Both the position numbers and the translations under genes were made by a program. Positions 2,001 to 16,045 of a stretch of 29,825 bases of DNA are shown one piece after another. The notes under the pieces were generated by a model. That model searched no databases. It worked only from the letters and a program-made list of their open reading frames with translations, and had not been told where the DNA came from. Source of the stretch: a virus; IMG/VR virus record IMGVR_UViG_3300035204_000738, positions 1 to 29,825 of that record; one strand, given 5' to 3'. Positions within the stretch are counted from its first letter, which is position 1. Each line of letters opens with the position of its first letter.

Positions 2001-2575
2001 TCATTACAGAAATGACTAAGTTACAGAAACTATGTGAAGAAGTTAAAACCATCAAAGAAGGTGAGGAGATTGGTGCTCAGCTTCTTAAAGAATTAACCGA
2101 AAGTCAAAATGGAATTGGATTGGCAGCAAACCAAATCGGTATTAACAAAAGAGTTTGTGTTGTCAATGTCAAAGAACCACTTGTTCTAATCAATCCACGA
2201 ATAACAGAAACATCAGAAGAAAAGTTTATCTTTCCAGAAGGTTGTTTATCATTTCCAGGACAACATATTAGAACAGAAAGATTTACTGAAATAACAATTG
2301 AAGCAGATAATCACGAAGGTAAATTATCTTTCTCTGCTGATAGTGAAGATGTAAATGATGCCTTTGAGTGTGCTTGTGTTCAACACGAGATTGATCATTT
2401 AGATGGTGTTACAATGTTTGATAGAGAGTGGAAACAACAACCTATTAGAGTTGAAAAGAAGTTTGGTCGTAATGAAAAAGTTACAATCACAGATGGTAAA
2501 GAAACCAAAGAACTTAAATGGAAGAAAGCCGAACCTCTTGTAGAGAGTGGTGATTGGGAGATGGCTACTGTTTAA
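1997..2575 (+). CDS. def: peptide deformylase
   Basis: Removes the formyl group from the N-terminal Met of new proteins. All three family motifs are present: GIGLAANQ at residues 39-46, EGCLS at 81-85 with the metal-ligand Cys83, and HEIDH at 130-134 with ligands His130 and His134 and catalytic Glu131. Length 192 residues. The C-terminal 45 residues after the metal site are charged and differ from short phage deformylases. The gene is coupled to thioredoxin upstream and to the IMPDH-like gene downstream (TAATG overlap). A phage deformylase is known in several marine phages. Here it lies within 2.7 kb of an initiator-like tRNA and a tmRNA. Confidence 0.95.
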   Translation: MIITEMTKLQKLCEEVKTIKEGEEIGAQLLKELTESQNGIGLAANQIGINKRVCVVNVKEPLVLINPRITETSEEKFIFPEGCLSFPGQHIRTERFTEITIEADNHEGKLSFSADSEDVNDAFECACVQHEIDHLDGVTMFDREWKQQPIRVEKKFGRNEKVTITDGKETKELKWKKAEPLVESGDWEMATV

Positions 2576-3588
2576 TGAAAGAATATCTTACCTATGATGA
2601 TGTTCAGATAGTTCCAAAACTTTCTGATATTAAACACCGTTCAAATTGTAGTATATCCACCAGAGTAACAAAAAATTGGGAATTAAACATACCCATTGTA
2701 TCCTCGCCTATGGATACAGTTACAGAATTTACTATGGCTCAAGAGATGAATGAGTTGGGTGGATTAGGTATCATTCATAGATTTATGGGAATACACGAAC
2801 AGGCAGACCATGTAGGTAGAGTTACATTAGGACCACCATCCGCTGCTATTGGTGTTACTGGAGATTTTGTAGAACGAGCCCAAGAGTTAGTTAATAGTGG
2901 TTGTAAAATATTATGTATGGATGTAGCTCATGGACATCACAAATTAGTTAAAGAAGCAATTAGGAGAATAAAAAATGAAGTTATGGGAAAAGTTGACCTC
3001 TTGGTTGGAAACATTTCAACTGGAGAGAGTGCAAGAGACCTTTGTGAATGGGGAGCAGATGGTCTTAGGATTGGTATCGGCGGTGGTAGCCTTTGTAGTA
3101 CTCGTATTCAAACTGGTGTGGGAGTACCTATGGTTAGTTCCATTCTTTCTTGTGTTGCTGTTGCAGATGAGTATGATGTTCCTTGTATGGCTGATGGTGG
3201 GATTAGGAGCAGCGGTGATGTATGTAAAGGACTTGGCGCCGGTGCGGACACGGTAATGTTGGGTTCACTATTAAGTGGAACTAAAGAAACACCGGGTGTT
3301 ATAACCAAACAAGGTCAATGGCCAAATGAAGTATTACAGAAGAAGTATAGGGGTAGTGCATCAGTTGAGTCTAAAATGGATAGAGGAGAAAATAAAAATG
3401 TGGAAGGATATTCTACAACAATACCGTATAAAGGCAAGGTTAAAAGAATTGTTCAAGATATTATTAGTGGTCTTAGGTCTTCTATGTCTTATGTGGGTGC
3501 AAATAACATTGAAGAATATCAGTCAAAATGTGAATTTGTTAAAGTAACCAACGCCGGGATAATTGAAGCTAAGCCCCATCTTTTATAG
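2575..3588 (+). CDS. guaB: IMP dehydrogenase/GMP reductase family enzyme, no CBS domains
   Basis: A TIM-barrel purine nucleotide enzyme. The start at 2575 overlaps the deformylase stop as TAATG. Visible features are TYDDVQIVP at the N-terminus, SSPMDTVTE (43-51), the catalytic-cysteine loop GGGSLCST with Cys174, the phosphate loop DGGI and GAGADTVMLG (221-230). The YRG at 258-260 and the C-terminal EFVKVTNAG are more like IMP dehydrogenase than GMP reductase. At 337 residues it lacks the CBS pair that normally interrupts the barrel near residue 85, so allosteric purine control is probably lost. IMP dehydrogenase makes XMP, the step that commits IMP to GTP. GTP is the substrate of FolE encoded at 9779, so it may feed the 7-deazaguanine pathway as well as replication. 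The choice between the two activities is not settled by motif reading. Confidence 0.9.
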   Translation: MKEYLTYDDVQIVPKLSDIKHRSNCSISTRVTKNWELNIPIVSSPMDTVTEFTMAQEMNELGGLGIIHRFMGIHEQADHVGRVTLGPPSAAIGVTGDFVERAQELVNSGCKILCMDVAHGHHKLVKEAIRRIKNEVMGKVDLLVGNISTGESARDLCEWGADGLRIGIGGGSLCSTRIQTGVGVPMVSSILSCVAVADEYDVPCMADGGIRSSGDVCKGLGAGADTVMLGSLLSGTKETPGVITKQGQWPNEVLQKKYRGSASVESKMDRGENKNVEGYSTTIPYKGKVKRIVQDIISGLRSSMSYVGANNIEEYQSKCEFVKVTNAGIIEAKPHLL

Positions 3589-3596
3589 ATTTCCTT

Positions 3597-3605
3597 ATAT
3601 TTATA
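3597..3605 (+). promoter_or_regulatory. ATATTTATA motif, candidate late promoter
   Basis: ATATTTATA, preceded by TTCCTT, lies 22 bases before the start codon at 3628 with an AGGAG between them. The same nine bases recur in intergenic positions 4204, 4683, 5984 and 14203, each on the + strand before a new block. T4 late promoters have only a -10-type octamer (TATAAATA) read by gp55, and this phage encodes a gp55-like sigma factor. Confidence 0.5.
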
Positions 3606-3627
3606 TATAGATTAGGAGATAAAATAT

Positions 3628-3996
3628 ATGTCAGAACAAAAAATAACAATAAAAGAGTTAATTCAAGATATTGATTTTAGATTATCACATCTTGAAGATA
3701 TAACTGCAGATAACAGAAAAGTTATGATTAAACTTGTGGAGCAAGGAAATACAATAGTTAAATTTCTAAAACAGTTTGAGGTTCAGGATGTTACAGAAAG
3801 TGAATTGGGATTGCCAGAGTTACCATTTTCATCAGAAAATGATGATGTGGATGAAGAAGAACGAGTGGGTAGAATACAATCCATTAAAGAAGCAATAGAT
3901 GACTATATGGATAAGCATGACCAATTAAAAGAATTTGAGAAAGAATTAAAAAAGAATAAAGATAAATTAACACCGGGACAGATGGGTGAAAGTTAA
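3628..3996 (+). CDS. hypothetical coiled-coil protein
   Basis: 122 residues, acidic, with a predicted helical N-terminal half (regular leucine/isoleucine spacing) and a second charged helix at the C-terminus (about residues 88-115). An acidic linker (ENDDVDEEE) joins them. No enzyme motif is visible and I do not recognise it. It has a good Shine-Dalgarno (AGGAG at 3614-3618) and follows an ATATTTATA motif, so it is probably expressed late. It overlaps the next gene by 11 bases. Confidence 0.7.
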   Translation: MSEQKITIKELIQDIDFRLSHLEDITADNRKVMIKLVEQGNTIVKFLKQFEVQDVTESELGLPELPFSSENDDVDEEERVGRIQSIKEAIDDYMDKHDQLKEFEKELKKNKDKLTPGQMGES

Positions 3997-8231: not shown

Positions 8232-8780
8232 ATGCAATATATTACACGCTCAGGGACATTTGATTATGGACATAGAGTAATGAATGAAAAAATGAAATGT
8301 TTTAATCTTCATGGACATACAGGACTTTATGAATTGACATTTTCTTTTAATACAATGGAAGATATTGGTTATGCTATAGATTTTAAGGAAATTAAAAGAG
8401 TGGCTTGTCAATGGATTGATGATTTGTTAGACCACAGTTTCATTGCCAATCCAAAAGATAAAACTTATATTAAAGCAGCTGAAAAAGAAAATAGTAAATT
8501 ATGGTTGATGTCCTTGAATGGTAAAGGTAATTATTGTAATCCATCAGTTGAAAATTTAGCAAGGGAGATATTCTTAACTATGGAAATTTTATTTGAGGAC
8601 TACACAGATTTGGATATTTCTGAAATTAAATTAAATGAAACTCCAAAATGTTATACAATTTGTAATAGTAAGTCTATTCCAGAACAAGAAAAAACTAATT
8701 TTAGAAAAGTTAATTACCATTCAATTAAATCATATGCGGATGAAAAGGGGATTGTAGAATACGATGACAGAAAGATATAG
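8232..8780 (+). CDS. queD: 6-carboxy-5,6,7,8-tetrahydropterin synthase (QueD)
   Basis: Second step of the 7-deazaguanine pathway, turning dihydroneopterin triphosphate into carboxytetrahydropterin. Zinc ligands are His14 (FDYGH) and His27 and His29 of LHGH. The catalytic Cys23 lies in the CxxxHGH arrangement characteristic of QueD rather than eukaryote-type PTPS. Further signatures are AIDF (49-51) and LDHS (66-69). At 182 residues it is longer than the usual 120-140, with an insertion after residue 70 and a 35-residue C-terminal tail. The first gene of the operon; it overlaps queE by 17 bases. Confidence 0.92.
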   Translation: MQYITRSGTFDYGHRVMNEKMKCFNLHGHTGLYELTFSFNTMEDIGYAIDFKEIKRVACQWIDDLLDHSFIANPKDKTYIKAAEKENSKLWLMSLNGKGNYCNPSVENLAREIFLTMEILFEDYTDLDISEIKLNETPKCYTICNSKSIPEQEKTNFRKVNYHSIKSYADEKGIVEYDDRKI

Positions 8781-9564
8781 AATGGATTATTTACATCACA
8801 GAGAATTGTTAAATTTAGATTGGAAAAAGAAAATACCTATATCTGAAATATATACTTGTTTACAGGGTGAAGGAAAGTATATTGGTATTCCACACATTCT
8901 TATTAGAGTTACAGGATGTAAATTAAGATGTCAGTTTTCTAATTCATTTTGTGATACACCTTACGCTTCTTGGAAACCAGAAAAAGGTAAATATACTTTT
9001 AATGATATTGCAGAGTTTTATGAAACACACTCACATATTAAACACACGATGATTACAGGAGGTGGTCCAACACTACATCCAGAAGTTTTACAGATGTTAT
9101 GTTTGATAGCTAAAAGAAAAGGACATTATATTACTATTGAAACAGAGGGTTCAGAATTTGTACAGACAGTTGGAGATTTTGTTTCCCTATCACCTAAATT
9201 ATCTAATTCAACACCACAACCAGGAACTTGGATGGAATATGCTAATCGTGAAGTTACAGAAAAAGATAAACAACAACACGAAAAGTGGAGATGTAATTAT
9301 GATGATATGAAGAAACTAATTGATAATCATCCAGACTATCAAATGAAACCAGTTATTTCAAATGAAGAAGATTTAAAAGAAGTAAAAGAGTTACAGAAAA
9401 TATTGAATGTTCCAAATAATAAAGTCTGGTTAATGCCTGAAGGATTAGTTGAAGAACAATTAAATGAACGAAGAAAGTGGTTAATGGAGTTATGTACTGC
9501 ACTCGGTTATAACTTTTCAGACCGATTACATATTATCACTTATGGTGATGTACGAGGGGTATAG
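8764..9564 (+). CDS. queE: 7-carboxy-7-deazaguanine synthase (QueE), radical SAM
   Basis: Converts carboxytetrahydropterin to 7-carboxy-7-deazaguanine using S-adenosylmethionine and an iron-sulfur cluster. Family signs: YTCLQGEGKYIG (30-41), a cluster motif in GCKLRC...CDTPYASW, SPKL, and a C-terminal DRLHIITYGDVRGV matching the RLH..wGd.rG end of QueE. Two departures from usual motifs are seen. The cluster cysteines are Cys52, Cys56 and Cys63 (CX3CX6C, not CX3CX2C), and the SAM-binding GGEP is GGGP at 99-102. 266 residues. The ATG lies inside the end of queD, which implies coupled translation. Confidence 0.9.
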   Translation: MTERYRMDYLHHRELLNLDWKKKIPISEIYTCLQGEGKYIGIPHILIRVTGCKLRCQFSNSFCDTPYASWKPEKGKYTFNDIAEFYETHSHIKHTMITGGGPTLHPEVLQMLCLIAKRKGHYITIETEGSEFVQTVGDFVSLSPKLSNSTPQPGTWMEYANREVTEKDKQQHEKWRCNYDDMKKLIDNHPDYQMKPVISNEEDLKEVKELQKILNVPNNKVWLMPEGLVEEQLNERRKWLMELCTALGYNFSDRLHIITYGDVRGV

Positions 9565-9786
9565 ATGTATATTGAATATATAGGTTGGATTGGTTTTATA
9601 TTTCTTATTGGTGGTTATTATCTAAATGCTAAACAAAATATTTTGTGTTTTATATCTTGGGTATTTGGAAATATATTATTATTAGTATATGCTGTGATAA
9701 TAAACGCATTACCACAAGTAGCCACAGCATTGGTAGTATTAGTTATGAATATTTATGGTTATTTACAATGGAGTAAGGATGACTAA
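9565..9786 (+). CDS. small three-helix membrane protein
   Basis: 73 residues with three hydrophobic helices (about 6-22, 25-47 and 50-69). Helix 3 begins LPQ and ends NIYGYLQW, which resembles the end of PnuC nicotinamide riboside transporters. A three-helix unit with a PQ pair also recalls SemiSWEET proteins, so a half-transporter acting as an oligomer is possible. It lies directly between queE and folE with no gap on the queE side and overlaps folE by eight bases. A link to pterin, deazapurine or nucleoside movement is suggested by position only. It is much smaller than the known queuosine-precursor transporters. Confidence 0.7.
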   Translation: MYIEYIGWIGFIFLIGGYYLNAKQNILCFISWVFGNILLLVYAVIINALPQVATALVVLVMNIYGYLQWSKDD

Positions 9787-10411
9787 ATTAAAATATGCAA
9801 ATGGTAATAAACCATTAACAGAAGAACAAAAACAAAAGATGATTGAAGAAGCAGCTAAACATTATGGAAACTATATGACAGCTCTTGGATTTGATTGGGA
9901 GAATGACCCAAATAGTTCTGATACACCCATGAGAGTAGCTAAGGCATTTGTAAATGATTTAGCTGAAGGTGTTTATTCAGAAGGTCCAAAGATTACAGCA
10001 TTTGATAATGTTGATAGATATGATGGTATGGTATTTCAAGGAAACATAAAACTACATTCATTCTGTAGTCATCATCATCTTCCATTTGTTGGAGTAGCTA
10101 ATGTAGGTTACATTCCAGGAATTGATGGTAAGGTGATTGGTTTAAGTAAGTTAAATCGTATTGTAGAGTTCTATGCTAGACGACCACAAGTTCAAGAAAA
10201 TTTAACAATGCAAATACATAAACATATTGATAGAGTTTGTGAGAAGAATGAAGGTGTCGCTGTGATGTTAGAGGCTAATCATATGTGTGCTTGTGTTCGT
10301 GGAGTTAAACACGATGCTACAATGAAAACAAGTAAATTGAGTGGAGCTTTTATGGATAGTACAGAATTAGCTCGAACAGAATTTTATGAATTTGTAAGAG
10401 GATTGAAATGA
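9779..10411 (+). CDS. folE: GTP cyclohydrolase I
   Basis: First step of the pathway: GTP to dihydroneopterin triphosphate. The start at 9779 is chosen because GGAGTAAGG lies just upstream; a longer frame to 9755 has no site. Zinc ligands are Cys96 and His99 in CSHHHLPF and Cys170 in NHMCACVRG. The core GLSKLNRIVEFYARRPQVQE (121-140) is nearly the family consensus. 210 residues, the usual bacterial size for the long form. Overlaps neighbours on both sides (queC starts four bases before its end). It also makes folate precursors, but here it sits inside a que cluster. Confidence 0.96.
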   Translation: MTKLKYANGNKPLTEEQKQKMIEEAAKHYGNYMTALGFDWENDPNSSDTPMRVAKAFVNDLAEGVYSEGPKITAFDNVDRYDGMVFQGNIKLHSFCSHHHLPFVGVANVGYIPGIDGKVIGLSKLNRIVEFYARRPQVQENLTMQIHKHIDRVCEKNEGVAVMLEANHMCACVRGVKHDATMKTSKLSGAFMDSTELARTEFYEFVRGLK

Positions 10412-11178
10412 TAAATAAAAATACATTAACAAAACCAATAAATAAAAAAGTATTACTATGCTCAGCTGGTATGGATAGTTACATAATTGATAAACTTGAA
10501 AAACCAGATGTATGTTTGTTCATTGATAGCAAATCAAATTATAGTGAGATAGAAAAAAAGTGGATGATTGAAAATGAAGTGCACTATCATAATCTTGTAA
10601 TAATGGATAATGTGTTAGATTTGTCTATGGTTGAATTAGATAATTTTATTGTACCGATTAGAAATTTATTTTTTGCTGCATTTGGAACATACTTTGGAGA
10701 TGATATTATACTTGGAGCTACTTATGGTGATAGGAGTAGTGATAAGGATTATACATTTCAGGGTATGATGAATGGAGTATTAAATTATATATATGGGAAA
10801 AGTCATTGGTGTGAAGGTAGAAATATAAACTTCAACTTGAAATATAAAGAATGGACAAAAGAAGATTTAATAAAAGAATTTATTAAACAGGGTGGTGATG
10901 TAGAAGAGCTTGTGTTCAATAGTTTCAGTTGTTACACACCAGATGAAAACGAAGAACCCTGTGGTAAATGTAAACCTTGTATTAGAAAGTTTCTTTCAAT
11001 ACTCGGTGCAACTGGTGTTGATATTAGTGAATATTATGATAATAAACCACGAGATTATTTTACAGAAGAAGTTATACAACAATGGATAGGTGAATTAAAA
11101 GTTCCTGTGAATAGACGAGGTAGAGAGAGTGAAGAAACAGAAAATGTGTTATATGATATGTTAGAGGGAAGATGTTAA
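10408..11178 (+). CDS. queC: 7-cyano-7-deazaguanine (preQ0) synthase, QueC
   Basis: ATP-dependent conversion of carboxy-deazaguanine and ammonia to preQ0. The PP-loop reads SAGMDS (19-24) instead of the usual SGGxDS. The C-terminal zinc site is complete: Cys175 in SCYTPDE, then Cys185, Cys188 and Cys191 in PCGKCKPC. FIVPIRN at 80-86 and ILGATYGDR match the substrate-binding regions. 256 residues, about 25 longer than cellular QueC. With folE, queD and queE it completes the route from GTP to preQ0 inside one operon. Overlaps dpdA by seven bases. Confidence 0.92.
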   Translation: MINKNTLTKPINKKVLLCSAGMDSYIIDKLEKPDVCLFIDSKSNYSEIEKKWMIENEVHYHNLVIMDNVLDLSMVELDNFIVPIRNLFFAAFGTYFGDDIILGATYGDRSSDKDYTFQGMMNGVLNYIYGKSHWCEGRNINFNLKYKEWTKEDLIKEFIKQGGDVEELVFNSFSCYTPDENEEPCGKCKPCIRKFLSILGATGVDISEYYDNKPRDYFTEEVIQQWIGELKVPVNRRGRESEETENVLYDMLEGRC

Positions 11179-12380
11179 TACAAAATAAATTTAAGTATTT
11201 CCCATCATTTTCTGTTGGTGGGTTTGGAGACGCTCTACGAAGTAACTATAAATTTTTAGATGGATTTTCTTGTAGATTTTATTCAGAGGATTTTCCAGAA
11301 AAGTTTAGACATAATGAGTTTCTAATATCAGCTGGACACTTTATAAGAAATAATCCAGACTTATATAATGAACATGGTTTTACAAATAAGAATTTAATTA
11401 TGGGTGACTCTGGTGGTTATCAAATATGTTCTGGAGCAACCAAATGGAAACCAGAATTAACACAACAATCATTTGAGTGGTTGGAACGAAATTCTAATAT
11501 AGCCATGAACTTGGATATTCCACCAAGACTTAAATATGATGGTAGGTTTAATGAATGTCTTAATTTAAGTAAAGATAATTTTAAGTACTTTGCAGATAAT
11601 CAAAGTGGTAATGTAGAATATCTAAATGTAATTCAAGGTAGTGATGAACATTCATTTAAGAAATGGTATGACGAAGTTAAACAATACCCATTTCAAGGTT
11701 GGGCTATAGGTGGTTCTGGATTTAGTTACTATAAATTCTTATCAGGACTTATGGTATTGTTGGATGGAAATGAACATCATAATCCAAATATAAAATACTT
11801 TCATATACTTGGTTCATCACGAATTACATACTTTTTAATGTTGATACAATTACAAAAATCATTAAATGAAATTGGAGTTGATATAACTATAACAACCGAT
11901 AGTTCATCACCTGATAGAGCAGTTGTCTTTGGAACTTATTATTCTGGATATAGTATTAAGCGTGGTACTTGGGAAGGTATAGGTTTTCCAAACGAAGCTA
12001 ACCATTCAGATATAATAGATGAATTTGTTGAATTAGAAAATCCAACATTTCCAATCATAAATGAATTTGATGTTGAATTATCAAAGCATGTAGATTTTAG
12101 TTCAGTAAAAGATAGAGTAGCATATAGTACAGGAATGAGATTACATAATTTCCAATTTTTTAAGGATGTAATAAATAAGGTTGAAAGTATTGTTTATGGA
12201 CATGATTTTATTTTACAACAAACATTATCAACAGATATGTACAATATATTACATTCAATTGATGAAATGGTAAAGAGTGATAATCCAAGATTAGTATTTG
12301 AGAAACACAAACCATTATACTCAAAGTTAAGTAATACAAAAAAAGAAGTACAAACAAATACAACACATACATTTTTTTAA
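11172..12380 (+). CDS. dpdA: DpdA-like DNA 7-deazaguanine transglycosylase (TGT fold)
   Basis: 402 residues with features of the tRNA-guanine transglycosylase barrel. DSGGYQ (79-84) contains the conserved acid-base Asp79. MNLDIPP has Asp115, VIQG is at 153-156 and GWAIGGSG at 176-183. TTDSSS with Asp243 is the best candidate for the nucleophile. The zinc-binding cysteines of cellular TGT are absent, which fits the DpdA group that exchanges guanine for preQ0-type bases in DNA. Position directly after queC supports a role in modifying phage DNA, so that host restriction enzymes fail to cut. No queF or amidotransferase is in the window, so preQ0 itself is the predicted base. DNA rather than tRNA as target is inference. 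Confidence 0.82.
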   Translation: MLIQNKFKYFPSFSVGGFGDALRSNYKFLDGFSCRFYSEDFPEKFRHNEFLISAGHFIRNNPDLYNEHGFTNKNLIMGDSGGYQICSGATKWKPELTQQSFEWLERNSNIAMNLDIPPRLKYDGRFNECLNLSKDNFKYFADNQSGNVEYLNVIQGSDEHSFKKWYDEVKQYPFQGWAIGGSGFSYYKFLSGLMVLLDGNEHHNPNIKYFHILGSSRITYFLMLIQLQKSLNEIGVDITITTDSSSPDRAVVFGTYYSGYSIKRGTWEGIGFPNEANHSDIIDEFVELENPTFPIINEFDVELSKHVDFSSVKDRVAYSTGMRLHNFQFFKDVINKVESIVYGHDFILQQTLSTDMYNILHSIDEMVKSDNPRLVFEKHKPLYSKLSNTKKEVQTNTTHTFF

Positions 12381-12391
12381 TAGGAGAAGCA

Positions 12392-13129
12392 ATGCAACTA
12401 ACAGCAGAACAAATACAAAATAATTGGGACAAACTAATAACAATTATTAAAGAAACATTTGAGGGTGAGAGAAAAGAAAATCTGTTAAAGATGTACAATC
12501 ACTTTCAAGAACGAATGATGATAGCACCCGCATCTGGTCAATCACATTTTCATTTATGTGTACCTGGTGGATATGTACAACATATTCTAAACATCATACA
12601 TTACTCAAAAGAGTTTTACAAATTATGGAAAGATAACGGAGCTTATGTAGATGACTATACAGAAGAAGAATTAATCTTCGCCGCGATGCATCATGACTTG
12701 GGTAAAGCTGGTGATTTAGAACAAGACCATTATATTCCAAATCCGTCAGAGTGGCATAGAATAAATCAAGGAAAAATTTATACAAATAATCCTGACTTAA
12801 ATTTTATGACCCCACCAGATAGAGCTATATGGATATTAAATCAGTTTGGTATTACAATGTCACAGAATGAATATATTGGAATTAAATTAACTGATGGGAT
12901 GTATGACGAGGGTAATATTCAGTATCTTAAATCATATGCACCAGAAAAGAAGTTGAAATCTAATATGGCTCATATACTTCATCAAGCTGATATGACTACA
13001 ACTCGTATTGAGTACGAAGATTGGTTACATGCAGATGAAAAAACTAAACAAGTTAAAGCACCAAAAACAAATGATGAACATAAAAAAGTGGAAAACTTAA
13101 AATCAAAGTTTGATGAACTTTTTGCGTAG
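12392..13129 (+). CDS. HD-domain phosphohydrolase
   Basis: 245 residues with HD-superfamily metal ligands: His64 (GGYVQH), His101-Asp102 in AAMHHDLGK, and Asp200 in HQADMTT. Members hydrolyse phosphate esters of nucleotides or second messengers; the substrate is not visible here. It follows dpdA by 11 bases with TAGGAG before the ATG, in the same operon. Candidate roles are trimming nucleotide pools (for example dGTP or deaza-nucleotides) or breaking a host alarm nucleotide. A lysine-rich C-terminal tail follows the domain. Confidence 0.8.
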   Translation: MQLTAEQIQNNWDKLITIIKETFEGERKENLLKMYNHFQERMMIAPASGQSHFHLCVPGGYVQHILNIIHYSKEFYKLWKDNGAYVDDYTEEELIFAAMHHDLGKAGDLEQDHYIPNPSEWHRINQGKIYTNNPDLNFMTPPDRAIWILNQFGITMSQNEYIGIKLTDGMYDEGNIQYLKSYAPEKKLKSNMAHILHQADMTTTRIEYEDWLHADEKTKQVKAPKTNDEHKKVENLKSKFDELFA

Positions 13130-13140
13130 GAGGTAATAAT

Positions 13141-13440
13141 ATGTTATATGATTTATTTTTTGTTTTATTCTTTTTAATAAGTGTTGTATCAACATCACTT
13201 GTATATTTTTCATTGAGAAGAATAAATCAATATGAAAATCTAATATTTCAGTTTCAACAAATAATTGAATATGCTGCCGAAAAAATGAAAGCCGTAGATG
13301 CAAGTGGTCATTACGAAGCAGATGATGAAACTGGATTTTTCTTTCAACAATTAAAAGAGTTACAGGAGTTATTAAATGAATTATTTGAAAACGAACAGTC
13401 AGAGGAGAATAGTAGTGCCAAAGAAAAAGAAAAAGAGTAA
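13141..13440 (+). CDS. membrane-anchored coiled-coil protein
   Basis: 99 residues. One N-terminal transmembrane helix (about residues 3-24, Phe/Leu-rich) is followed by a helical, acidic cytoplasmic or periplasmic part ending in a Glu/Lys-rich tail. AGGAGG is seven bases before the ATG. It overlaps the late sigma gene by 26 bases, so the two are probably translated together. It could be a membrane tether for a partner or a spanin-like protein. Not recognised. Confidence 0.7.
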   Translation: MLYDLFFVLFFLISVVSTSLVYFSLRRINQYENLIFQFQQIIEYAAEKMKAVDASGHYEADDETGFFFQQLKELQELLNELFENEQSEENSSAKEKEKE

Positions 13441-14119
13441 TTATTATTTTGACCAAGATGTTGAAGATGCGATAATAAGATACAATTCCCTAGACCCATC
13501 AGAAAATCAATCAGAACGGAATAAGATTTATCAAGAAGAAATACATTATGCGTTTGATAAGTTATCTGAAAATATTATAAATACATTTAAGTTTGAGTAT
13601 TTTGATGATGTGTATGAAGATGTAAAGATAGAAGTAGTTTCTTTTCTTGTGATGAATATTCATAAATATGACCATACAAAAGGTTCAAAAGCATTTAGTT
13701 ATTTTTCTGTAGTGGCTAAGAATTATCTTATTCTTCATAACAATGCTAACTATAAAAAATATTGTACTCATACTGGAGTAGATATACTTAATACTAAACA
13801 AATATCACAGAGTAAAGAAGCATATTTTTCAGAATTTACAGATGAGATGGTACAGTATTTTAATAATAATATTCCTAACTTATTTAAGAATAAGCGAGAT
13901 ATAGAAGTTGCATATGCTATTGTTGAGTTGATGAAACAGAGGGATGAGATTGAAAATTTTAATAAAAAAGCATTATATGTTCTTATTAGAGAAATGACTA
14001 ATATAGAAACATCTTACATAACAAAGGTAGTTAATGTATTTAAGAGAGAATATAAACATCTTGTTACTCAATTTGAGAAGAATGGAATTATAGAAGATAA
14101 ACGAAATTCATTTTTTTAA
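13415..14119 (+). CDS. 55: T4 gp55-like late sigma factor
   Basis: Directs host RNA polymerase to late promoters. 234 residues from a GTG at 13415 with GAGGAG seven bases upstream; a longer in-frame start at 13376 has no site. It opens with five lysines, as in MPKKKKK. The middle contains the short sigma-2-like segment KAFSYFSVVAKNYL, which corresponds to the core-binding and -10-recognition region of gp55. The C-terminus (YITKVVNVFKREYKHL) is helical. Last gene of the early-type operon, eight kilobases into the block and just before a terminator, after which virion genes start. The regulated motif is plausibly ATATTTATA. Confidence 0.85.
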   Translation: MPKKKKKSNYYFDQDVEDAIIRYNSLDPSENQSERNKIYQEEIHYAFDKLSENIINTFKFEYFDDVYEDVKIEVVSFLVMNIHKYDHTKGSKAFSYFSVVAKNYLILHNNANYKKYCTHTGVDILNTKQISQSKEAYFSEFTDEMVQYFNNNIPNLFKNKRDIEVAYAIVELMKQRDEIENFNKKALYVLIREMTNIETSYITKVVNVFKREYKHLVTQFEKNGIIEDKRNSFF

Positions 14120-14148
14120 CAATATATAAAATATAACAATAACCGATT

Positions 14149-14180
14149 AAAATCCCATTGAAAGATGGGATTTTTTATTT
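14149..14180 (+). terminator. rho-independent terminator after gene 55
   Basis: AATCCCAT (14151-14158) pairs with ATGGGATT (14165-14172) around a six-base loop, followed by TTTTATTTT. It separates the 7-deazaguanine/sigma operon from the virion block. Confidence 0.88.
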
Positions 14181-14202
14181 TATATACATTTTTACAATTC
14201 CT

Positions 14203-14211
14203 ATATTTATA
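14203..14211 (+). promoter_or_regulatory. ATATTTATA motif before the virion block
   Basis: TTCCT then ATATTTATATATGA, closely matching the sequence at 3591-3608. It lies just after the terminator and 37 bases before the first virion gene, with TTAGGAG between. Best candidate for the major late promoter of this window. Confidence 0.55.
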
Positions 14212-14247
14212 TATGAATAGTTACATCAATATATTTAGGAGAAAAAT

Positions 14248-14649
14248 GTGAAATCAAAAGACGAAATATTTGAAGGTAAATCATTTCAAGACTTAACTAA
14301 AGATATTTATAAAAATACAACTGATAGAAAAAAACAGATAGATTTGTTAATATCAGAGATACATGGATTTATTACAACCATAGATGATGTTGTATTGGTC
14401 GCTCCAATTATAAAAGAATATATGGATGTAGCAGTTAAGAATGATGAACATCTTGTTAAGTTGGCAGGTGTGATACAGAGAATTATAGCTAAATCAACTG
14501 GTGGTGACGAAGAGTCATTTTTACTATCAGATGCTGAAAAAGAAGATTTAATATCAGCTCTTCAAGATGATGTAAATGAAATTCAAAGAGAAGCTGATAA
14601 AATAAATGTCATTAAAGAACAATCAAAAAATATTATAAGGGATAATTAG
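14248..14649 (+). CDS. hypothetical protein, first gene of the late block
   Basis: 133 residues from a GTG start (the overlapping ATG at 14246 is followed at once by a stop). Entirely helical-looking, acidic, with regular hydrophobic spacing. No known motif. Placed directly before the gp5-like hub gene with one base between them, so a role in baseplate assembly or as a chaperone is likely by position. An internal ATATTTATA occurs at 14303-14311. Confidence 0.7.
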   Translation: MKSKDEIFEGKSFQDLTKDIYKNTTDRKKQIDLLISEIHGFITTIDDVVLVAPIIKEYMDVAVKNDEHLVKLAGVIQRIIAKSTGGDEESFLLSDAEKEDLISALQDDVNEIQREADKINVIKEQSKNIIRDN

Positions 14650-14650
14650 T

Positions 14651-16045
14651 ATGGGAAATCATCCAGTACATATACCACAACCAAAACAATATCATATTCC
14701 GAATTGGTTGGATGATAATGGAGATGGAGATCCACCACCTCATATTACAATGGATTATTTACAATTTATACCTGGTGTTGTCGTAGGCGTAGTTACAGGT
14801 AAAGATTCTGATAAATATGAAGGTGATTTGAGTAGAATTAGTAGTATTAGAGCACTACCACATATTGGTGGAAAAGAAATGAAAAAGAAATCTATGGTTG
14901 GTGAAGAGGGTAGATATGTTCCTTTACTTAGAGGAATACAAGAAACTCCAACTTTGGGTGATCCAGTTTTATTGTGTGAAATTGGTGGAGTTCAATATTA
15001 TCTTGGTCCATTAAATACAGAAAATAATCCAAATTGGAATGAAGATAAATTTAGTAGCGATGAAGTAAGAAGTGGTCAAGAACATGGAATGAATGCAGAT
15101 TCATTATCTAAAACAAAAGCATTTGCTAATAAAGACCAGTTAAGATTACAAAAATTATTAAATAATAAATTAGATAATCCTATAAATCCAGATGGTGAAT
15201 TGTCAAAAGCAATACATGGTGATTTGGTATTAGAAGGTAGACATGGTAATAGTTTAAGAATTGGAAGTAGAAATGTAAATCCATATTTAATTATATCCAA
15301 TGGTAGATTATCTAATAATCCAGTAGAGACAAGTTTAGATGGAACTATATTTGGAATTTTTACACAAGGTACACTTCATGATCATTTTAATATGGATAAA
15401 AAGAATGGTGAGAAATATGAATTTTTATTGGCTGATGATGAAGTTGATGGTGTTAAACGAAGTATATCAAGAACATTTATGAAACCACTCGCGAGGGGGT
15501 TAGTAGACAAACCAGAAAACGCAGATAATAATATAAATGAAACTATTTATGGATATAGTGGAAATCAAGCATTTCTATCATCAGATAGAATAACTTTTAA
15601 TGCGAGAAATGATAGCATATTTGTATCTGCACTTCAACACATTCATTTAGGTAGTGGCAATTCTATGACTTTTTCTACAAGTCAAAGTATTTTATTTGAA
15701 GCGGCTACACGGGTTGGTGTAAATGTTCCTTTATTTAAAGTGAATAGTGGGATTGTTACTATAGATGGTAGAGATGGAATTATATTGGGAGCACCGGAAT
15801 TGGGTGATAATCCCAATCGAGCTGTATGTGGTGAGGGATTGGTTGATGCGTTAAATTCATTGAAAGTAATTATACAATCTCTTTGTATGGGTGTAACTAT
15901 GGCTGTAGAAAATAGAGCCAAACCTGGTGGTTCAACGGATTATATGACACCAATTATGAAAGATTTAAACAAATGGTATGGTGATGGTGGTAAGAAATTA
16001 GAAGATCAAATTTTAAGTAAACGGGTGTATATTTCACCTTATTAG
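14651..16045 (+). CDS. 5: gp5-like baseplate hub/tail-spike protein
   Basis: 464 residues. Residues 35-125 look like the OB-fold of T4 gp5 and related hub proteins (FIPGVVVGVVTG, then VPLLRGIQETPTLGDPVLL). A linker is followed from about 190 by repeated short beta strands (LVLEGRHGNSLRIGS, SDRITFNARNDSIFVSA, IHLGSGNSMTFST) like the gp5 beta-helix spike. Unlike T4 gp5 I see no lysozyme domain between the two, so peptidoglycan cutting must come from elsewhere, perhaps the 3D-domain protein. The C-terminal 90 residues are helical and unlike T4. Confidence 0.78.
   Translation: MGNHPVHIPQPKQYHIPNWLDDNGDGDPPPHITMDYLQFIPGVVVGVVTGKDSDKYEGDLSRISSIRALPHIGGKEMKKKSMVGEEGRYVPLLRGIQETPTLGDPVLLCEIGGVQYYLGPLNTENNPNWNEDKFSSDEVRSGQEHGMNADSLSKTKAFANKDQLRLQKLLNNKLDNPINPDGELSKAIHGDLVLEGRHGNSLRIGSRNVNPYLIISNGRLSNNPVETSLDGTIFGIFTQGTLHDHFNMDKKNGEKYEFLLADDEVDGVKRSISRTFMKPLARGLVDKPENADNNINETIYGYSGNQAFLSSDRITFNARNDSIFVSALQHIHLGSGNSMTFSTSQSILFEAATRVGVNVPLFKVNSGIVTIDGRDGIILGAPELGDNPNRAVCGEGLVDALNSLKVIIQSLCMGVTMAVENRAKPGGSTDYMTPIMKDLNKWYGDGGKKLEDQILSKRVYISPY

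Follow-up and report, generated by a model that had tools for sequence, protein, structure and literature searches.

Which base is made by the gene run at positions 8,232 to 12,380 of the marine phage record IMGVR_UViG_3300035204_000738, and into which molecule is it inserted? The window analyzed here is this IMG/VR record at its whole length (29,825 bp, a genome fragment), and the run holds, in order and all on the plus strand, genes for QueD, QueE, a PnuC-like protein, FolE, a QueC-like protein and DpdA, a protein with the tRNA-guanine transglycosylase (TGT) fold. The genes overlap or abut, with successive gaps of -17, 0, -32, -4 and -7 nt, i.e. from -17 to 0 nt apart from the junction of the PnuC-like gene and folE, and more than 20 related contigs repeat this order with some exchanges, which is far above chance. 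A reading made from the letters alone (the sequence-only reading) had described one run of folE, queD, queE, queC and a TGT-fold gene. The tight run stands, while the name queC fits poorly, its family match being weak and its signature largely gone. Judging from gene content, gene order, active-site conservation, the placement of DpdA and an odd QueC branch, we consider it probable that the operon produces a 7-deazaguanine and places it in the phage DNA; activity, substrate, product and protection are what we infer from these data. The base itself may be preQ0, 7-amido-7-deazaguanine (ADG) or a new amide.

Is the precursor made by the phage genes themselves? FolE (GTP cyclohydrolase I, 218 aa, 9755..10411) matches Pfam PF01227 (2.8e-47) and carries the motifs CSHH and CACVRG. 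The QueD-like 6-carboxytetrahydropterin synthase (182 aa, 8232..8780) matches PF01242 (8.4e-26) and PHROG_2389 (2.4e-27) and has a CFNLHGH motif, and the QueE-like radical S-adenosylmethionine synthase of 7-carboxy-7-deazaguanine (CDG) (266 aa, 8764..9564) matches PHROG_2076 (2.9e-47). In the latter, the cluster motif CX3CX6C replaces the usual CX3CX2C, a variant conserved across all close QueE relatives examined. With metal and cluster ligands present, the three form a complete de novo CDG gene set, and conversion of GTP to CDG by FolE, QueD and QueE is a well-supported prediction. The claim of four preQ0-making enzymes was therefore an over-reading, as three would make CDG and the fourth is related to QueC but divergent. 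The PnuC-like protein, a small nicotinamide mononucleotide transporter-like membrane protein (73 aa, 9565..9786; Pfam PF04973, 2.2e-7), has its gene at the same position, after queE, in most related contigs and recurs e.g. in L058 (7516-7755); it is possibly a transporter for the pathway base or a precursor.

From CDG onwards, the QueC-like enzyme would activate the carboxylate with ATP and then give an amide-level product, either ADG or preQ0 or, possibly, an amide formed with a different amine. After replication, DpdA would swap the product base for guanine in the phage DNA, and the modified base would shield DNA sites from restriction.

Does the transglycosylase act on DNA? The predicted DpdA (402 aa, 11172..12380) matches Pfam TGT at only 5e-4, and since a profile search against PDB sequences found nothing, fold comparison was used instead. 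The AlphaFold2 (AF2) model (predicted local distance difference test, pLDDT, 87.9) matched, in Foldseek, TGT (4e-9) and DpdA 7ui4 (4e-9), an enzyme that inserts preQ0 into DNA. The fold cannot tell tRNA from DNA enzymes, as Z scores of 22 to 24 were obtained for DpdA 7ui4 and for the Tgt of human, mouse and bacteria alike. Across 19 sequences, D79, S80, D115, Q155, G180, G181 and D243 were invariant, with the motifs GDSGG (D79), NLDIPP (D115) and TTDSSSPDR (D243); by what is established for TGT, these are the base-binding and nucleophile positions, with D79, D115 and D243 as catalytic aspartates. The protein has three cysteines and no CxCxxC, a motif absent in all 19 sequences and present in E. 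coli Tgt, so the earlier description of a TGT-fold gene without the zinc cysteines was right. The motif is a weak discriminator, however, as one phage protein (from phage NCTB) has it.

In pairwise comparisons of hidden Markov models (HMM), the best relatives of the window DpdA were an NCTB protein, DpdA2 of Vibrio phage KVP40 and a Menderavirus protein; the matches to E. coli Tgt and DpdA1 were weaker. DpdA2 of phages nt-1 and KVP40 (PMC6884629), the closest named DpdA by this comparison (E 7e-6, pairwise alignment), shares the TGT fold and the lack of CxCxxC, but the window protein is about 60 aa shorter and has jumbo-phage proteins as its tree neighbors instead. In a tree covering four bacterial Tgt, with archaeal TGT and bacterial DpdA left out, the bacterial Tgt formed a separate clade (100/100), and the window DpdA was placed (99/98) with phage proteins, namely those of PA5oct type, of Phosso and of Vibrio phage 2.275.O; support is weak for the deeper branch linking this group to KVP40 DpdA2 and Tgt. 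A grouping with tRNA enzymes, which had been named as what would overturn the sequence-only reading, was thus not found among these sequences. That the window protein is a DNA-type transglycosylase is well supported by these comparisons, and as CDG synthesis and such an enzyme occur together, some guanine in the phage DNA is probably replaced, as had been proposed.

The genes might alternatively raise queuosine in host tRNA as a form of auxiliary metabolism, the TGT-fold protein acting on tRNA. FolE, QueD and QueE are common to queuosine synthesis, and the TGT-fold gene of a Menderavirus related to Stenotrophomonas phage YB07 has been called a tRNA enzyme (PMC9025141); the TGT-fold protein of YB07 itself (L019) groups with KVP40 DpdA2 (100/98). 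The window enzyme, however, lacks the tRNA-type zinc motif and lies outside the Tgt clade, and no QueF match was obtained in the window fragment. We regard a tRNA role as very unlikely.

What, then, does the QueC-like protein do? This ATP-pyrophosphatase (256 aa, 10408..11178) matches PHROG_1550 (8.1e-15) and, weakly, the Pfam family QueC (3.5e-9). Among NCBIfam models, QatC (3.9e-7) came ahead of QueC (7e-4), both far below cut-off, and the canonical QueC model TIGR00364 reached 19 bits where its cut-off is 150. PADLOC also puts QatC first. In the AF2 model (pLDDT 76.5) the altered loop is not resolved, since residues 110-113 score below 50; comparison with VIA gave Z scores of 14.3 to QueC 3bl5, 13.4 to Cap9 and 12.4 to QatC, although neither QueC nor QatC was among the top 50 Foldseek matches. 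For this gene, the ratio of nonsynonymous to synonymous substitution (dN/dS) between the window and its relative L014 is 0.08, one of the lowest values of the operon.

Such matches could indicate that the QueC-like and TGT-like pair modifies a protein and not DNA, as do QatC or the Cap9/Cap10 pair of type IV CBASS, and the DpdA model matches Cap10 as well (9ntn, E 7.7e-4). The fold is indeed shared with QatC (qatABCD) and Cap9, but QatC is about 400 aa long with N- and C-terminal extensions and has qatABD as neighbors, whereas the window protein lacks the extensions and lies between folE and dpdA, with no QatB gene beside it. Cap9 retains YxDC, which the window protein lacks. FolE, QueD and QueE in the same operon, the grouping of DpdA with phage enzymes, and a tree in which the QueC-like branch is separate from QatC and Cap9 all argue against a protein target; QatA, QatB, QatD and CD-NTase were not noticed, though no family-by-family search was made. 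We therefore hold this role to be highly improbable.

At the positions of E. coli QueC, numbered as in PMC13329287, the window protein has S35, S37, Y39, E42, R99, N100, S131, S132, D133, K134, K165 and Y189. It shares with canonical QueC (TIGR00364; E. coli, B. subtilis) the fold, VPxRN (as VPIRN), Tyr189 (in SCY), the cysteine-rich zinc site (CX9CxxCxxC), the Asp of YPDC and most of the ATP loop. It differs in YxQxHxxE, which reads S, S, Y, E, the Glu alone being kept, in YPDC, which reads SSDK, so that the Cys is lost too, and in the first Gly of the loop, which is Ala. In Cap9, D133 reads the Watson-Crick edge of 7-deazaguanine, and the residue is common to QueC (PMC13279940). This guanine-reading Asp is kept in the window protein and lost in QatC, and CDG, or another 7-deazaguanine, is therefore still its likely substrate. 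The chemistry after activation is uncertain.

Two products can be set against each other, both within the reading that a 7-deazaguanine goes into DNA. In the plain case, the enzyme is an ordinary QueC that has diverged, and DpdA inserts preQ0. No second QueC-family (PF06508) match occurs in the window, in L014 or in 10 other carrier records searched (two labelled complete genomes), and the enzyme fills the QueC step, with R99, N100, D133, K165, Y189 and the zinc cysteines retained. The canonical-type QueCs of sister phages have an altered YPDC as well (PPDC/PPDS), so that this Tyr may be dispensable in phages. On the other side, the two tyrosines that are each essential in E. coli QueC, Y35 and Y131, are missing together with most of YxQxHxxE, whereas the QueCs of the relatives of Rosebush and CAjan (L024 and L023), which are related to phages with known dPreQ0, retain all of these. 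Insertion of preQ0 is thus possible but somewhat doubtful. With both tyrosines missing, ADG, or some other amide at C7, has about the same probability: the enzyme would stop after one round, or link CDG to a different amine in the manner of Cap9, which uses a glycine amine, leaving dADG or a new 7-amide base in DNA. A remodelled substrate pocket with a kept guanine-reading Asp (PMC13279940) would fit this, as would the genes for glycosyltransferase-like proteins, phosphoribosyltransferase (PRTase) or inositol-phosphate synthase that adjoin the QueC-like gene in some carriers (L056, L058 and L019), and the lack of QueF above cut-off and of GATase_6 in all carrier records searched, including ones longer than the window. 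Against this, dADG is known in Campylobacter phages (cited in PMC8306585), and the QueC of a Campylobacter phage (L022) retains Y35 and FPDC; ADG alone does not, therefore, require such a change in QueC.

The sequence-only reading had arrived at preQ0 because no queF or amidotransferase was visible. No match to QueF or GATase_6 was indeed obtained in the window, where the absence of queF is weak evidence since the record is a 29.8-kb fragment, and none above cut-off in longer carrier records; with Tyr35 and Tyr131 missing, however, the step from there to preQ0 is not supported. Weak QueF matches in carrier records were discounted as below cut-off, and the one in YB07 sits on an annotated GTP cyclohydrolase, as expected from the shared fold.

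How widespread is this type of QueC? Besides the window and L014, it was found in a human-gut phage record (L015), in IMG/VR contigs (L046-L052 and L057), in large phage contigs (L053, L055, L056 and L058) and L054, in Bacteroides phage BS162P1 and a related gut phage record (L016 and L017), in phage NCTB (L018) and in the Stenotrophomonas Menderavirus YB07. The branch is thus spread over several unrelated phage groups. Its tree support (93/84) is slightly under the strict mark, YPDC is replaced by [S/V/A]-x-D-[K/S] in every aligned member, and a pattern search of cellular genomes with the window protein found no relatives. A TGT-fold gene adjoins the QueC-like gene or lies within a few kb of it in all carriers except NCTB. 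No phage cluster resembling the branch is described in a 2026 survey of PF06508 (PMC13329287); a 2019 paper had pointed out that the singleton QueCs of phages possibly differ in function (PMC6884629).

Some carriers have further genes at these sites. A glycosyltransferase-like gene adjoins the QueC-like gene in L056 (6739-7614; PHROG glycosyltransferase, 1.8e-6) and L058 (5113-5979), and in YB07 a myo-inositol-1-phosphate synthase gene (8269-9519) lies between folE and the QueC-like/DpdA pair. In L016, an intein-like insert seems to interrupt the DpdA gene (12692-14890) where the nucleophile is predicted (SSDS ... HN/TTWLGG); the relative in L017 is uninterrupted.

Several points weigh against a 7-deazaguanine for DNA as the output of the window operon. 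Four residues of E. coli QueC (Y35, R99, Y131 and Y189) each abolished queuosine formation when changed to Ala (PMC13329287), and two of these are absent here. The canonical ATP loop SGGxDS reads SAGMDS in the window and L014, the remaining branch members having SGG. In NCTB (L018/L020) a long distance separates the DpdA-like gene from the QueC-like one, the window genome is incomplete, and no chemistry has been reported for any carrier of the branch in the accessible literature.

Is the step after CDG fixed within this phage group? At 16 loci (about eight distinct) of sister phages, the operon encodes QueD, QueE, a PnuC-like protein, a canonical-type QueC, FolE, a PRTase, DpdA and an HD protein. 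In the window and L014 the slot of the canonical-type QueC is empty and the QueC-like gene lies between folE and dpdA, with the PRTase kept in L014 and absent from the window. The sister-phage QueCs read YYGQKN and PPDC/PPDS in the alignment, i.e. canonical-type with changes of their own, and judged by these residues we are not sure that preQ0 is their product. In contig L010 a QueC gene (2879-3676) follows dpdA; its product, like the QueC of L021 (8995-9876), keeps YGQKH and YPDC intact and has lost all zinc-site cysteines. In L001-L005, L008 and L028, a GT4-type glycosyltransferase and a 115-aa QueD-like protein (PHROG_17812) are encoded near dpdA, mostly with the PRTase, and no credible QueC was found in those of these contigs that were searched. 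Likewise, a Pseudomonas phage of the PA5oct type encodes DpdA, QueE, a GT4, an epimerase and a PRTase, and its 286 kb gave no PF06508 match. Such DpdA cassettes with a GT4-type glycosyltransferase and without QueC, among them that of Pseudomonas phage vB_Pa-PAC2 (L063), where the 115-aa protein was not looked for, possibly yield glycosylated 7-deazaguanine DNA from CDG.

Close relatives thus exchange the step after CDG and keep FolE, QueE and DpdA; as the window DpdA is nearest to that of L014 and next to that of L001 in the tree, modules have been swapped between close kin. Our wider proposal, which is tentative and in our judgment falls a little short of an even chance, is that a branch of the QueC family undescribed in the accessible literature and tied to phage DpdA converts CDG to a base other than preQ0 (ADG or another CDG amide) for DNA, and that what follows CDG synthesis is an exchangeable module in one and the same phage group, i.e. 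a canonical-type QueC, this QueC-like enzyme, or a glycosyltransferase with a QueD-like protein and without QueC.

The small PRTase, present near dpdA in most sister contigs (e.g. L014 10771-11190, L001 6170-6577 and L058 7088-7498), has xanthine and hypoxanthine-guanine PRTase as its nearest models, and could salvage the guanine released by base exchange. Directly after dpdA, in the window and in nearly all relatives, lies a gene for an HD-motif protein (12392..13129, plus strand; PHROG_5889, 4.8e-11; synteny), possibly a mere neighbor of the operon. Upstream, also on the plus strand, is a single-domain IMP dehydrogenase/GMP reductase (2554..3588; Pfam IMPDH, 7e-102), for which the NCBIfam model of IMPDH gave 286 bits versus 166 to 205 for GMP reductase, all below cut-off; it may supply GTP to the pathway. 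Such a gene lies upstream of the operon in L008 and L014 as well. The window has a GC content of 31% and no DNA-level match to any known phage was found for it; its baseplate wedge gene (PHROG_219, 7.9e-26) has among its best phage matches Microcystis phage Mel-JY01 and Flavobacterium phage immuto (33% identity).

Systems of this kind are already known: in CAjan, DpdA and the preQ0 pathway lead to modified, restriction-resistant phage DNA (PMC6884629). With the cassettes of CAjan and Rosebush (the second group in that paper, with dPreQ0), the window shares the set of FolE, QueD, QueE, a QueC-type protein and DpdA, its compactness and the lack of a visible amidotransferase; it differs in a QueC from a divergent branch, in a DpdA that is not of the DpdA1 (Seurat) kind and in the small PnuC-like gene inside the operon. 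What is new is the QueC branch and the module swapping. Gene lists are the basis on which phage 7-deazaguanine cassettes are interpreted, a QueC present and a QueF absent being equated with preQ0; as this operon shows, the label QueC can mask an enzyme in which the published signature of preQ0 formation is missing. The same branch occurs in cultured phages (Stenotrophomonas phages YB07, Moby and Mendera), which makes direct testing possible. The QueC fold has also been reused by bacteria in defense, as in QatC and Cap9, and if the product here is not preQ0, phages would have an extra DNA base, and the branch would offer a handle on substrate specificity in this fold.

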